NCBI GenBank assembly: GCA_947629685.1
Contig: CANREP010000001.1
Coordinates: forward strand, 177,958 to 238,725
Origin: an uncultured Phascolarctobacterium sp.
GTDB taxonomy: Bacteria > Bacillota > Negativicutes > Acidaminococcales > Acidaminococcaceae
Length of the DNA: 60,768 nt
Direction of reading: 5' to 3'
Under the pieces are notes generated by a model. The model was not told the origin of the DNA. It ran no database searches and saw only the letters and a program-made list of their open reading frames with translations. Positions 36,633-41,909 of the stretch are shown one piece after another. Position 1 is the stretch's first letter. Every line of letters starts with the position of its first letter. A program made the translations under genes and the position numbers.

Positions 36633-36653
36633 ATAAGGAACCTGCACCCTTTT

Positions 36654-36689
36654 ACGCTTTCCCGTTTGCTGCGGGAGAGCGTATTTTTT
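36654..36689 (+). terminator. Intrinsic terminator after glycerate kinase
   Basis: ACGCTTTCCCG (36654-36664) pairs with 36672-36682 (one T-G pair), followed by ATTTTTTA. It isolates the biotin promoter region that begins ten bases further on. Confidence 0.88.
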
Positions 36690-36698
36690 ATACTTTAA

Positions 36699-36725
36699 GT
36701 TAACCTTTTATTATTTTAGGTTGAC
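36699..36725. promoter_or_regulatory. BirA-like operator 1 of the bioWF unit
   Basis: GTTAAC (36699-36704) and GTTGAC (36720-36725) are 15 bases apart; with flanks they read AGTTAACC and GGTTGACA, close to known BirA half-sites (TTGTAAACC/GGTTTACAA). The right half overlaps the -35, so binding would block RNA polymerase. Confidence 0.75.
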
Positions 36726-36749
36726 ATAAGGTTTGTGTATCAGTATACT
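36721..36749 (+). promoter_or_regulatory. Sigma-A promoter of the S-component-like gene and bioWF
   Basis: Perfect TTGACA (36721-36726), a 17-bp spacer and TATACT (36744-36749). The -35 is part of operator 1. Confidence 0.85.
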
Positions 36750-36760
36750 GAAAATAATTC

Positions 36761-36787
36761 GTTAACTTTATTTTATGGAGGGTTTAC
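36761..36787. promoter_or_regulatory. BirA-like operator 2 of the bioWF unit
   Basis: GTTAAC (36761-36766) and GTTTAC (36782-36787) are again 15 bases apart. The site covers the ribosome-binding region (GGAGGG) directly before the ATG at 36789, so it lies in the transcribed leader. Confidence 0.7.
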
Positions 36788-36788
36788 A

Positions 36789-37292
36789 ATGTATCGAGAA
36801 CTGACCTTTACCGCTTTCTTAGGTGTGCTGATCCTGCTTTCCGGCAGCCTGAAACTGCCTTCCCCCGTTGCCGGCGGCGAATTCCAGCTCTCTGCACCCA
36901 TCGCTGTGCTCATTTGCGCCTATTTCGGATTCAAACGTTATCTTACAGCCGGTATCCTTGCCAGTTTATTAGGACTGCTGCTGGGTACAGCTACCGTTTT
37001 CAATGTCCTTATAGCCATGGTTTTCCGCTGCGTCGCCGGAGCAGTCATCGCCCTTGGACAAAGCTCGCTGCCGGCAGTCATCATCAGCGGCCCGCTGGGA
37101 ACTTTGGCGGCACGTATCGTCATGGGCTCTATCCTGGAGGTAAACTGGCTGCTTTTAGCTGCGGCCGCAGCTCCTGGGATGCTCTTTACAGCCGTTACAG
37201 CCGGGCTGCTTTACCTGCCCGGCAAAAAATTCCTGCGCAGGCTGCCCCTGCTGCATTTATATCTCACCAGACAAGGAAGTGACCGCCCATGA
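36789..37292 (+). CDS. S-component-like membrane protein of the biotin locus (candidate pimelate carrier)
   Basis: A 167-residue membrane protein with about five or six predicted helices (RELTFTAFLGVLILLSG, SAPIAVLICAYFGFKRYL, AGILASLLGLLLGTATVF and so on). Size and helix pattern fit an ECF-transporter S component, but it lacks the BioY pattern and I do not recognise a named family. It sits between a biotin-regulated promoter and the bioW-bioF fusion, overlapping the latter by four bases (ATGA). BioW needs free pimelate, so pimelate import is my inference. The ATG at 36789 follows GGAGGG, and an upstream in-frame ATG (36735) would extend across the promoter and is rejected. Confidence 0.6.
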   Translation: MYRELTFTAFLGVLILLSGSLKLPSPVAGGEFQLSAPIAVLICAYFGFKRYLTAGILASLLGLLLGTATVFNVLIAMVFRCVAGAVIALGQSSLPAVIISGPLGTLAARIVMGSILEVNWLLLAAAAAPGMLFTAVTAGLLYLPGKKFLRRLPLLHLYLTRQGSDRP

Positions 37293-39184
37293 CCATGTAC
37301 AGTATCAAGATGCGCGCGTCTAAACAAGACCGCCATATTTCCGGCGCAGAAAAAATTATTTCTGCCGCCGCAGTAACAGAGACCGTCACGCAGCTTGCCG
37401 ACCGCGCCCTGCACCATGCGCTGGGACAGGCCGATTTCGTCAATCTGAAAATCGAAGCCGTCGACGACGGCGAACTCCGGCATCTGCAGGCCCTGCCTGT
37501 CCGCAGCAGCTTCGCCGCTTCCGTAGAGGACAGCTTTACTGTAATGCGCAGCCTGCTGCTGCAGCTGCAGGTCGAGGATCCCGACACACTCATCGAACTT
37601 TTGCGTCATGCCAAACCTATGCGCGGCGCCGTTTTATATGACGTTGCCACCAATAAACGTCTTGAACTTGACCAAGAACGCGGCATCCGCGTCACCTATA
37701 TGGATGCATCCCAAAGCAGCTCGGACGGCAGCTGCAAGGACCATTTCCGCGAAGCGCTGGTGCTGGCCACCAAGGTAGCCAATACTCCCGGTATGCTGGC
37801 AGAAATCTGTATTTCTGACGACCCTGACTACGTTACCGGCTACTTTGCCTCCAAACAGCACGGCTATGTACGGCTCAGCCCGTTAAAAAATGCCGGCAGC
37901 AGCCACGGCGGCCGCATCTTTATTTTTGACAGCAGCAAGGCTGACCCTCAAGCCGCTATCTACTTCCTGGAAAAACAGAAAGTGCTGGTCGACGGCATAC
38001 CCGCTGCCGCTGAACCACAAAATATGCGAGTGGAAATAGCCCGGCAGCTGCAACAGCTGCGGCAGGCCAAACTGCACCGCAGCCTGCGCACCATGGACAG
38101 CCAGCAGAGCAGCCATGTAACGACCGGCGGCAAAAATATGCTGCTGCTTGCCTCCAACAGTTATCTTGATCTGGCAGCTGCTCCACAAGTAAAAGAAGCT
38201 GCAGCCAAGGCCGCGCTGACCTGGGGAGCCGGCAGCGGCGGCAGCAGGCTCACTACCGGTACCCTGCGGCTGCATGAACAGCTGGAAAGCGCTCTTGCCC
38301 GCTTTAAGCACACAGAAGCCGCCCTGCTCTTCAACACCGGCTATATGGCCAATCTGGGAGCCATCACCGCTTTTGCCGGCAAAGACAGCGTCATTTTCAG
38401 CGACGAATACAATCATGCCAGCATTATCGACGGCTGCCGCCTGAGCGGGGCTAAAATCGTCGTCTATAAGCATAACGATATGTCCGACCTGGCTAAGAAA
38501 CTGCGCCAGACAACTTTCCATAAAGGGCTCATCGTCAGCGACGCAGTTTTCAGCATGGACGGCGATATTGCCGACCTGCCGCAGCTGACGGCACTGGGAA
38601 AACGTTACGGACTGCTGACCATGATAGACGAAGCCCATGCTACCGGCGTCATCGGCGCTACGGGCAAAGGCATTGCCGAATACTATAATTACAGCTGTCA
38701 GGCAGATATCACCATGGGCACGCTCAGTAAGGCGCTGGGCTCCGAAGGTGGCTTTATCTGTGCTGACAAAATATTTATCGACTACCTTGCCAATAAGGCG
38801 CGCAGCTTCGTTTTCTCCACAGCCCAATGCCCGGCTGCTATCGGCGCGGCCCTTGAAAGTCTAAAAGTACTGGAAGCTCAGCCGGAAATGGTACGCCACC
38901 TGCAGCACAATATACGCTTTTTCTGCCGCTGTCTGCAGCAGGAAGGTATCGAAGCACATTCTGAAACCGCTATTATCCCTATCGTTATAGGCGATGAAAG
39001 CGCAGCGCTAAATATCGCTCAGGAACTGTATGACCAAGACATCCTCATCCCCGCTATCCGCTATCCAACTGTTGCCAAAGGCGCAGCCCGCCTGCGCGCC
39101 GCCCTGATGTCCACGCATACGGAAGCCGAACTGAGCCGGGCAGCAGCCGCTATCGGCGCGGCTGTGGCCAAAAGCAGGAAATAA
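37289..39184 (+). CDS. bioWF: Fused 6-carboxyhexanoate-CoA ligase / 8-amino-7-oxononanoate synthase
   Basis: A 631-residue fusion. Residues 1 to about 245 match BioW, which makes pimeloyl-CoA from pimelate, ATP and CoA: MYSIKMRASKQDRHISGAEK at the start, MRGAVLYDVATNKRLE, and ISDDPDYVTGYFASKQHGY near residue 175. Residues from about 260 to 631 are BioF, which condenses pimeloyl-CoA with L-alanine: LLLASNSYLDLA, WGAGSGGSRLTTGT, DEYNHASIIDG, IDEAHATGV and the PLP lysine K481 in TLSKALGSEGG. Both halves look intact, so the intermediate could be passed on within one protein. ATG overlaps the preceding stop. bioB is not in the window. Confidence 0.93.
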   Translation: MTMYSIKMRASKQDRHISGAEKIISAAAVTETVTQLADRALHHALGQADFVNLKIEAVDDGELRHLQALPVRSSFAASVEDSFTVMRSLLLQLQVEDPDTLIELLRHAKPMRGAVLYDVATNKRLELDQERGIRVTYMDASQSSSDGSCKDHFREALVLATKVANTPGMLAEICISDDPDYVTGYFASKQHGYVRLSPLKNAGSSHGGRIFIFDSSKADPQAAIYFLEKQKVLVDGIPAAAEPQNMRVEIARQLQQLRQAKLHRSLRTMDSQQSSHVTTGGKNMLLLASNSYLDLAAAPQVKEAAAKAALTWGAGSGGSRLTTGTLRLHEQLESALARFKHTEAALLFNTGYMANLGAITAFAGKDSVIFSDEYNHASIIDGCRLSGAKIVVYKHNDMSDLAKKLRQTTFHKGLIVSDAVFSMDGDIADLPQLTALGKRYGLLTMIDEAHATGVIGATGKGIAEYYNYSCQADITMGTLSKALGSEGGFICADKIFIDYLANKARSFVFSTAQCPAAIGAALESLKVLEAQPEMVRHLQHNIRFFCRCLQQEGIEAHSETAIIPIVIGDESAALNIAQELYDQDILIPAIRYPTVAKGAARLRAALMSTHTEAELSRAAAAIGAAVAKSRK

Positions 39185-39185
39185 C

Positions 39186-39212
39186 GTCAACTATTTTTTT
39201 ATTAAGGTTGAC
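39186..39212. promoter_or_regulatory. BirA-like operator 1 of bioY-bioD-bioA
   Basis: GTCAAC (39186-39191) and GTTGAC (39207-39212) are 15 bases apart, the same spacing as at the bioWF promoter. It begins two bases after the bioWF stop and the right half overlaps the -35. Confidence 0.72.
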
Positions 39213-39236
39213 TTTGAACTGCAACAGTCGTATACT
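39208..39236 (+). promoter_or_regulatory. Sigma-A promoter of bioY-bioD-bioA
   Basis: TTGACT (39208-39213), a 17-bp spacer and TATACT (39231-39236), matching the bioWF promoter in spacing and -10. Confidence 0.8.
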
Positions 39237-39243
39237 GGCATTA

Positions 39244-39270
39244 GTTAACTATATAGCAAAAGAGGTTTAC
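39244..39270. promoter_or_regulatory. BirA-like operator 2 of bioY-bioD-bioA
   Basis: GTTAAC (39244-39249) and GTTTAC (39265-39270) are 15 bases apart and cover the AGAGG ribosome site, as at 36761-36787. Confidence 0.7.
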
Positions 39271-39272
39271 TT

Positions 39273-39839
39273 ATGAATTGTCCGCATACCGCTGAAAACA
39301 AAACCCGTCAGCTGATTTTTATGGCCGTCTTCACGGCGCTTATCGCTATCGGCGCCTTTATCAGGATTCCCGTGCCCGTAGTTCCCTTTACGCTGCAGTT
39401 TCTTTTTACCACCCTGGCAGGAATGCTGCTGGGAAGTAAGCTGGGCGGAGCCAGCGTGCTGGCTTACATCGCGCTGGGGCTCTTAGGCCTGCCTATCTTC
39501 GCTTCCGGCGGCGGTCCCGGCTACGTCTTTAATCCCAGCTTCGGTTATCTGATCGGCTTCTGGCTGGGCGCCAAACTCACAGGAGCCATAGCCAGGCGCG
39601 GCGGCAGACAGCCCGGTTTCAGACGTCTGCTGGCCGCGTCATTCAGCGGTCTGGCTGCTGTCTATGGCTGCGGTATGCTGTATTACTATATCATCGGCAA
39701 TTACGTTATCAATCAGCCCATCGCCCTCTGGCCGCTGTTCCTGTACTGTTTCCTGCTGGCCGTACCTGGCGATATCGTCCTGTGTCTTGCAGCTTCCCTG
39801 CTGGGACAAAAGCTGATTCCTGTGATAAAAAAATACTGA
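39273..39839 (+). CDS. bioY: Biotin transporter S component BioY
   Basis: A 188-residue membrane protein of the biotin-specific ECF S-component family. The signature IRIPVPVVPFTLQFLFTTLAG-type region (residues 30-50) and the following GGASVLAYIALGLLGLPIF and GPGYVFNPSFGYLIGFWLGA segments are unmistakable. About six helices are predicted. EcfA, EcfA' and EcfT are not in the window and would have to be supplied from elsewhere. It leads the second biotin unit, so biotin uptake and synthesis are controlled together. Confidence 0.96.
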   Translation: MNCPHTAENKTRQLIFMAVFTALIAIGAFIRIPVPVVPFTLQFLFTTLAGMLLGSKLGGASVLAYIALGLLGLPIFASGGGPGYVFNPSFGYLIGFWLGAKLTGAIARRGGRQPGFRRLLAASFSGLAAVYGCGMLYYYIIGNYVINQPIALWPLFLYCFLLAVPGDIVLCLAASLLGQKLIPVIKKY

Positions 39840-39855
39840 TCTGAAGGTGAAAACA

Positions 39856-40554
39856 ATGAGTAAAGGTCTTTTCATTACCGCTACCGGCACCGACATCGGC
39901 AAAACCTATGTTACCGGCCTACTGGTCAAAAAGCTGCGCGACGCGGGGCTGAACGCCGGCTATTATAAGGCAGCCCTCAGCGGCGCCGAAGCCACTGCTG
40001 ACGGACTGCTTCCCGGTGACGCCGATTTTGTTGCCCGCACGGCGGGGCTGCCGGAACGCCCGGAGCAGCTGGTATCTTACATTTACCGTACCGCTGTTTC
40101 GCCCCACTTGGCAGCGCAGCTTGAAGGCAATCCTGTAGACATGAGCAAGGTCAAAGCGGATTTTAAACAAGCGCTGGCCCACTGCGACTATCTGACCATG
40201 GAAGGCAGCGGCGGCATTATCTGCCCCATCCGCTGGGACGAGCAGCAGCTGATGCTGGAAGACATTATCCGCCAGCTGGGACTTGGTACGCTGATAGTCG
40301 CCAATGCTGCGCTGGGCTCCATTAACGCCTGCGTCCTGACGACCTTTTATCTGCAGCAGAAAGGTATTCCCATCCGCGGTATCATCCTCAACAACTTTGA
40401 CGCCGCCGACATAATGCAGCAGGACAATAAGAAAATGATTGAAGCGCTGAGCGGCGTGCCCGTTATCGGCTGCGTTCCCTATGGCGCTGATGAACTTGAC
40501 ATAGACGTAAAGCTTTTGCAATCGCTTTATCATACGCCGGAGGAAAGGAACTGA
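39856..40554 (+). CDS. bioD: Dethiobiotin synthetase
   Basis: A 232-residue ATP-dependent enzyme that closes the ureido ring of 7,8-diaminopelargonate to dethiobiotin with CO2. The P-loop is ITATGTDIGKTYV at about residues 7-19 and MEGSGGIICPI is the GSGG region. Length is normal. The ATG at 39856 has GAAGGTGA upstream; a GTG at 39847 lies inside that ribosome site. It is six bases from bioA. Confidence 0.95.
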   Translation: MSKGLFITATGTDIGKTYVTGLLVKKLRDAGLNAGYYKAALSGAEATADGLLPGDADFVARTAGLPERPEQLVSYIYRTAVSPHLAAQLEGNPVDMSKVKADFKQALAHCDYLTMEGSGGIICPIRWDEQQLMLEDIIRQLGLGTLIVANAALGSINACVLTTFYLQQKGIPIRGIILNNFDAADIMQQDNKKMIEALSGVPVIGCVPYGADELDIDVKLLQSLYHTPEERN

Positions 40555-40559
40555 TATTT

Positions 40560-41909
40560 ATGAATACGCAGGATTTGGCTGCAAGAGATTTGGCACACAT
40601 CTGGCATCCCTGTTCCCAGATGAAGGACTATGAGACGCTGCCCCCCATCATTGTCGACCATGCCCGTGGAGCATATCTGTACGACACCGACGGCAACAGC
40701 TATCTCGATATTATCAGCAGCTGGTGGTGCAACCTGCTGGGTCACTGCAACCCGGACATCAACGCCGCTATCAAAAAGCAGCTGGATACGCTGGAACACG
40801 TCATCTTCGTCAACTTCTCCCACGAGCCTGCCATCAGGCTGTGCGAAGAACTGAGCCAGGTAGTGCCGCCAGGACTGACTAAATTCAATTTTTCCGACAA
40901 CGGTTCCGCCTCTGTAGAAATCGCGCTGAAAATGGCCTTCCAGTATTTTTACCAGACAGGACACCCGGAAAAGAAACGCTTCATGTGTCTCAGCGAAGGC
41001 TATCACGGAGAAACCATCGGCGCGCTGTCTGTCGGCAGCATGGATTTGTTCGCTCAGATTTATAAGCCCATGATGATGGATAATATCCACGTCCAGGCAC
41101 CCGACTGCTACCGCTGCCCCTTTAAGAAAGACCGTGCAAACTGTCAGTGCGAATGTTTTAAATTTGCTGAAGAAACCTTTGCTAAGCACGCTCACGAAAC
41201 AGCCGCCATCATCGTCGAGCCGCTGCTGCAGGGCTGCGCCGGGATGCGTATTTATCCTGCCCTCTACCTACAGAAACTGCGTAAGCTGTGCGACGAATAC
41301 AATGTACTGCTGATTGCCGATGAAATCGCCACCGGCTTTGGCCGCACCGGCAAGATGTTCGCCTGCGACCATGCAGGTATCACCCCCGACCTGATGTGCA
41401 TCAGCAAGGCGCTGACCGGCGGTTATCTGCCCATGGCGATTACCGTGACCACGGAAAAAATCTTCGCCGCCTTCTATGACGACTACAACAAGGGCAAGGC
41501 TTTCATGCACAGCCATACCTACAGCGGCAATCCTCTTGGCTGCGCCGCCGCTCTTGCCGTACAAAAGATTATCCGCGAACAGCATATTCTGGAGCAGGCA
41601 CAGGAAAAGGCCGGCTACTTTACCGCCGCCTTACAGGACGCTTTCGGCAAGCATAAAAATATCGGCGAAATACGCCATATTGGTCTGATTAACGCCATGG
41701 AGCTTGTTACAGATAAAGAGAAAAAAACTCCTTTCGACAGCAAGCTGCGCATCGGCTACGAAATTTATAAAAAAGCTCTCACTCATGGACTGCTGCTGCG
41801 CCCTTTAGGCAATGTACTGTACTTTAATCCGCCGCTGAATATCGACACCGCAGATCTTGATAAAGCTATCGCTATCTGTAAACAGTCTATGGACGAAATA
41901 TTAGGCTGA
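40560..41909 (+). CDS. bioA: Adenosylmethionine-8-amino-7-oxononanoate aminotransferase
   Basis: A 449-residue PLP aminotransferase that converts 8-amino-7-oxononanoate to diaminopelargonate. The N-terminal HIWHPCSQMKDY and SSWWCNLLGHCNP segments are typical of BioA, including the tryptophans of the substrate site. DEIATGFGRTGKMFAC and the PLP lysine K283 (ISKALTGGYLP) follow. A cysteine-rich insertion (CYRCPFKKDRANCQCECF) around residues 183-200 is present, as in Bacillus-type BioA. It ends the operon at a terminator. Confidence 0.96.
   Translation: MNTQDLAARDLAHIWHPCSQMKDYETLPPIIVDHARGAYLYDTDGNSYLDIISSWWCNLLGHCNPDINAAIKKQLDTLEHVIFVNFSHEPAIRLCEELSQVVPPGLTKFNFSDNGSASVEIALKMAFQYFYQTGHPEKKRFMCLSEGYHGETIGALSVGSMDLFAQIYKPMMMDNIHVQAPDCYRCPFKKDRANCQCECFKFAEETFAKHAHETAAIIVEPLLQGCAGMRIYPALYLQKLRKLCDEYNVLLIADEIATGFGRTGKMFACDHAGITPDLMCISKALTGGYLPMAITVTTEKIFAAFYDDYNKGKAFMHSHTYSGNPLGCAAALAVQKIIREQHILEQAQEKAGYFTAALQDAFGKHKNIGEIRHIGLINAMELVTDKEKKTPFDSKLRIGYEIYKKALTHGLLLRPLGNVLYFNPPLNIDTADLDKAIAICKQSMDEILG

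Follow-up and report, generated by a model that had tools for sequence, protein, structure and literature searches.

In a stretch of 60,768 nucleotides from an uncultured Phascolarctobacterium sp. (contig CANREP010000001.1, positions 177,958 to 238,725; hereafter the window), two biotin promoters are each bracketed by two predicted canonical operators of the biotin repressor BirA. It is likely that dimers of BirA bound to biotinoyl-AMP (BirA~biotinoyl-AMP) at the upstream operator (O1) and the downstream operator (O2) would together give tighter repression. The four sites, at 36699-36725, 36761-36787, 39186-39212 and 39244-39270, are exact matches to GTYAAC-N15-GTTKAC on the + strand, where the first-pass annotation of this DNA had placed four half-site pairs with 15-base spacers. 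All four consist of inverted GTNNAC-type half-sites within the 14-16 bp separation that defines a BirA operator. The BirA gene, the biotin-gene targets and the conservation of the sites all agree with the BirA-like identity that had been proposed for them, an identity that appears well founded.

At the promoter of orf1 and bioWF, O1 (GTTAAC-N15-GTTGAC, 36699..36725) has a right arm that coincides with the -35 element of the core promoter TTGACA-17-TATACT (36721..36749, 11/12 consensus matches), and O2 (GTTAAC-N15-GTTTAC, 36761..36787) runs from the predicted transcription start to the edge of the ATG, ending 1 base ahead of this codon at 36789. The promoter of bioY, bioD and bioA carries O1 (GTCAAC-N15-GTTGAC, 39186..39212), again with its right arm as the -35, the core promoter TTGACT-17-TATACT (39208..39236, 10/12 consensus matches) and O2 (GTTAAC-N15-GTTTAC, 39244..39270), which likewise extends from the predicted start and ends 2 bases ahead of the ATG at 39273. 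These elements are all on the + strand, and the arms of the four operators are identical in the sister species. The promoters were located by a scan independent of the operator pattern, which agrees at both with the earlier claim that the first pair shares its right arm with the -35. The combination of O1 right arm GTTGAC as the -35, a 17-bp spacer and TATACT or TATAAT is found at the orf1-bioWF, bioY-bioD-bioA and bioB promoters, the last of these outside the window. The geometry had been described as identical at the two window promoters, and this is true of each operator by itself (N15), whereas the distance between operators differs, the left-arm offset from O1 to O2 being 62 bp at orf1-bioWF and 58 bp at bioY-bioD-bioA. 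The gap from the -10 to O2 is 11, 7 and 8 nt at orf1-bioWF, bioY-bioD-bioA and bioB, respectively, placing O2 at about the predicted transcription start. The second operator had also been said to cover the ribosome site; a Shine-Dalgarno sequence does lie within O2 at both window promoters (GGAGG at 36777-36781 and AAGAGG, respectively), but at bioB and in most relatives it lies downstream of O2. This cover is apparently incidental, the constant feature being the start of O2 relative to the -10. Blocking of the ribosome site was rejected as a conserved function, as the position of O2 follows the -10 rather than the Shine-Dalgarno sequence.

The whole 1.78-Mb genome has seven exact matches to the pattern, four of them in the window and all of them upstream of biotin synthesis or transport genes, and the reversed control pattern gave no exact match. 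Two of the three further sites form a third operator pair, which lies upstream of bioB (contig C20) with 59 bp between the two. The remaining one stands alone upstream of a putative operon (contig C5, L005:2-1448) in which a MaoC-like gene is joined by a second bioY and a thiolase gene; O1 is complete there and, by eye, a possible O2 is represented by its right arm alone, ahead of the ATG. The genome scan recommended in the first-pass annotation therefore returned no exact site away from biotin genes, the MaoC-like operon including bioY. The genome also encodes the bifunctional regulator to which such operators should belong, a 332-aa group II BirA at about C10:52.4-53.4 kb with an N-terminal winged-helix DNA-binding domain, a ligase domain and a C-terminal domain in one protein (HTH_11 66.5 bits, BPL 73.9 bits, BPL_C 49.3 bits), although its score against TIGR00122 (65.1 bits) is slightly below the cut-off of 70. 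A second protein of the biotin/lipoate ligase family was observed besides BirA (C1:93730-94101, 251-aa frame, L013).

The paired arrangement is conserved well beyond this genome. In the sister species an operator pair is present at all three of the same promoters, and the alignment shows identity at 72/72 arm positions and 18/18 positions of the -10, against 60/90 in the operator interiors and 55/80 between the operators. Within the family Acidaminococcaceae, double sites were found at bioB in nearly every genus examined, so that such sites are not the unusual feature that they had been taken for. A wider set of 88 non-redundant promoters with a strong BirA site was assembled from bioB, bioY and orf1 promoters of the family, the class and 70 further named loci, and was scored with an operator position weight matrix (PWM). 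A second operator 36-110 bp downstream was present in 37 of these 88, where shuffled sequences gave a mean of 0.54 and a maximum of 2. The anchor was the most upstream strong site, which makes the upstream side a biased control, and the shuffles and the offset peak were relied on instead. This peak lies at 57-59 bp (22 of the 37 second operators), with other offsets including 36-48 and 62-82; the best-conserved distance is the gap from the -10 to O2, which is 3-8 nt in most promoters with a mode of 6. A looser pair pattern, with the spacer held at N15, overlooked many relatives because spacers range from 14 to 17, and its matches outside the family resemble repeats or coding sequence. The strict promoter-anchored pattern (O1/-35/-10/O2) that replaced it was found in 42 of 300 Negativicutes genomes, from 25 of 91 genera, compared with 2 of 300 genomes for the reversed control. 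A chance origin of the pairs was rejected on the basis of the reversed-pattern controls and the shuffles. Examples of paired sites include Phascolarctobacterium faecium DSM 14760 and, outside Negativicutes, Desulfosporosinus (55 bp; Desulfosporosinus metallidurans) and Pelotomaculum (57 and 82 bp). No more than one strong site was seen at any of the loci examined from Lachnospiraceae and Oscillospiraceae, and many of the Clostridia loci examined have a single site whose right arm is the -35. Independent lineages thus share a second operator whose place relative to the promoter is conserved, as expected of genuine paired operators, and its conservation in the sister species and in wider Negativicutes promoters bears out the check on relatives that had been proposed. 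What these data establish is the presence and conservation of the sites, their placement on the promoters and the existence of the BirA gene. The first-pass annotation had named three findings that would speak against its reading, namely the lack of a bifunctional BirA, many hits away from biotin genes and no conservation of the second site; the reading stands, since BirA is present, the sites occur only at biotin genes and the second site is conserved.

Some observations weigh against the two-operator reading. A single good site is all that the MaoC-like/bioY/thiolase operon carries, and the same is true of bioB in genus g2 of the family, so that a pair cannot be an absolute requirement. Second sites are present but weak in Veillonella parvula, V. 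atypica and V. tobetsuensis. Moreover, paired sites from seven of these genomes made up part of the training set of the PWM, although the training took no account of spacing.

Other arrangements of BirA half-sites were also observed at bioB. Promoters of genus g6 (L033, L036-L038, L040, L045) contain four half-sites, one every 22 bp, with the -35 in the first operator, which could form three overlapping operators. In genus g18, BirA half-sites are interleaved around TATAAT (L212, L213, L215, L217, L219, L221, L222, around position 1500), and one case is a perfect 42-bp palindrome, GTTAACTATAATTATGTTAACGTTAACATAATTATAGTTAAC, in which two operators are offset by 15 bp. The bioB leader of Veillonella sp. 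R32 (L111) has a short inverted repeat, gcaacgactcatagtcgttgc, in place of the second operator, perhaps an attenuator.

With plentiful biotin, a BirA~biotinoyl-AMP dimer would occupy both O1 and O2. The dimer on O1 would mask the -35 from RNA polymerase, while that on O2, which spans approximately the first 27 transcribed bp, would obstruct the start site and early elongation. Either operator alone should repress, and the two together could lower the leak, roughly multiplicatively, and make the response steeper. The layout would merge the O1-type single site of many Clostridia loci with the O2-type single site in the 5' untranslated region (5' UTR) of Bacillus subtilis. From the sequences compared here we infer that this BirA binds the operators, that the two sites act independently and that repression is tighter or steeper as a result.

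An ultrasensitive switch, in which the BirA dimers bind cooperatively or bridge the promoter DNA by contact or a short loop, could account for the sharp offset peak at 57-59 bp across Acidaminococcaceae, other Negativicutes families and Pelotomaculum. However, the same peak is expected from the anchoring of O1 at the -35 and of O2 at the start, and the gap from the -10 to O2 is equally constant; a loop or protein bridge is not needed, because the promoter itself fixes the spacing. A distance of 57-59 bp corresponds to about 5.5 helical turns, which would put the dimers on opposite faces, and offsets of 36-48 and 62-82 were also found. Short DNA loops such as one of 58 bp are mechanically costly, and the looped repression raised in the first-pass annotation seems improbable for adjacent dimers at this distance. 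Cooperation or bridging is, overall, unlikely. It is more doubtful still that O1 alone is functional and O2 a duplicated or chance relic: many Clostridia and genus g2 manage with a single site of the O1 type, but the arm bases of O2 are all kept between the sister species while the spacers have diverged, and O2 recurs at a fixed place in many genera with almost no counterpart in shuffled sequences.

The position of O2 in the 5' UTR, over the Shine-Dalgarno sequence at both window promoters, would also suit an action in the messenger RNA (mRNA), as a hairpin or protein site masking the ribosome site. This appears very improbable: the predicted RNA is less folded than its shuffles (z +1.15, +1.75 and +0.80), the usual arm pair GTTAAC/GTTTAC disrupts RNA pairing, and the Shine-Dalgarno sequence is outside O2 in most relatives. 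A search of the leaders against Rfam gave no match, and an RNA hairpin or riboswitch was rejected on this result together with the folding below shuffles. The link of the palindromes to this particular BirA is drawn from sequence, which would leave room for a different repressor, but the half-site, spacer and target genes fit the published BirA signal TTGTAAACC-N14/15-GGTTTACAA (PMC545781) and a group II BirA is encoded in the genome, making another repressor a negligible prospect. The preferred explanation remains that of two BirA dimers, one at each operator. A more far-reaching proposal, which we regard as speculative and rather doubtful, is that Negativicutes and some related Firmicutes employ a two-operator BirA switch whose dimers, one over the -35 and the other over the start site, cooperate, that the single-operator second bioY (bioY2) and the double-operator synthesis promoters shut off at different biotin levels, and that genus g18 has interleaved multi-operator forms.

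The first biotin promoter is isolated, because an intrinsic terminator at 36653..36683 (+ strand; 13-pair stem, then a T run) ends the upstream glycerate kinase gene. The genes that follow the two promoters, all on the + strand, are orf1 (36789..37292), bioWF (37289..39184), bioY (39273..39839), bioD (39847..40554) and bioA (40560..41909). The bioWF gene encodes a single 631-aa fusion of pimeloyl-CoA synthetase and 8-amino-7-oxononanoate synthase (Pfam BioW 4.1e-76; TIGR00858 bioF 440 bits). A BioWF fusion with the same domain order, BioW then BioF, has been described in Corynebacterium amycolatum, of a different phylum (PMC9544090), a likeness that bears on the gene downstream of the operators and not on the operators. 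The products of bioY, bioD and bioA are the S component of a biotin energy-coupling factor (ECF) transporter (Pfam BioY 7.6e-37), dethiobiotin synthase (TIGR00347 127 bits) and adenosylmethionine--8-amino-7-oxononanoate transaminase (TIGR00508 582 bits). The 167-aa membrane protein encoded by orf1 belongs to an unnamed, compact and well-conserved family of about 165 aa with the motif G-E-F-Q-x-S-A-P, which adjoins bioW or bioF in 28 of the 30 Negativicutes loci examined, from many families of the class, and which in this genome is under BirA-type operators. Searches of Pfam and NCBIfam and a profile search against PDB gave no match for orf1, comparison with the BioY profile gave no convincing one, and a single-sequence AlphaFold model (mean predicted local distance difference test, pLDDT, 53) was too poor for a fold search. 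The product of orf1, whose family lies beside bioW across Negativicutes, is a plausible candidate for a component of a pimelate transporter, pimelate being the substrate of BioW, or for a partner of BioW. The MaoC-like/bioY/thiolase operon with its single BirA-type operator is conserved across three or more genera of the family and might serve the supply or salvage of a pimelate precursor.

BirA is the textbook example of a vitamin repressor acting at a single operator. The layout shared among relatives suggests a doubly locked version of this known switch, whose hosts belong to the Phascolarctobacterium and Veillonella groups of gut anaerobes. With a natural two-operator form that is widespread and shares the cell with single-operator promoters, the effects of operator number and position on the leak and steepness of a metabolic switch could be compared directly, and the clean anatomy, with one arm at the -35 and one at the start, would make the arrangement easy to test.

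Paired BirA operators were not described in the open-access papers searched; the main survey (Rodionov et al. 2002) lies outside that scope, and an earlier mention is possible. The BirA sites of delta-proteobacteria have the same half-sites, spacers of 14 or 15 and commonly GTTGAC as the right arm, but, unlike the promoters described here, one site is listed for each target operon, and no pairs (PMC545781, Table 1). The BirA operators of Escherichia coli (bioO) and Staphylococcus aureus are likewise inverted repeats, there bound by a holo-BirA dimer, and a single operator has been described for each tested promoter, in contrast to the pairs reported here (PMC6391492). In B. subtilis, the operators at bioWAFDBI, yuiG and yhfUST are also inverted GTTAAC-type half-sites recognized by a group II BirA, and the targets are again biotin genes and bioY-type transporters (PMC4016012). 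These sites lie in the 5' UTR, which corresponds to the position of O2; however, one operator per transcript has been described in B. subtilis (PMC4016012), whereas the promoters of the window carry an additional operator over the -35 of the same promoter.
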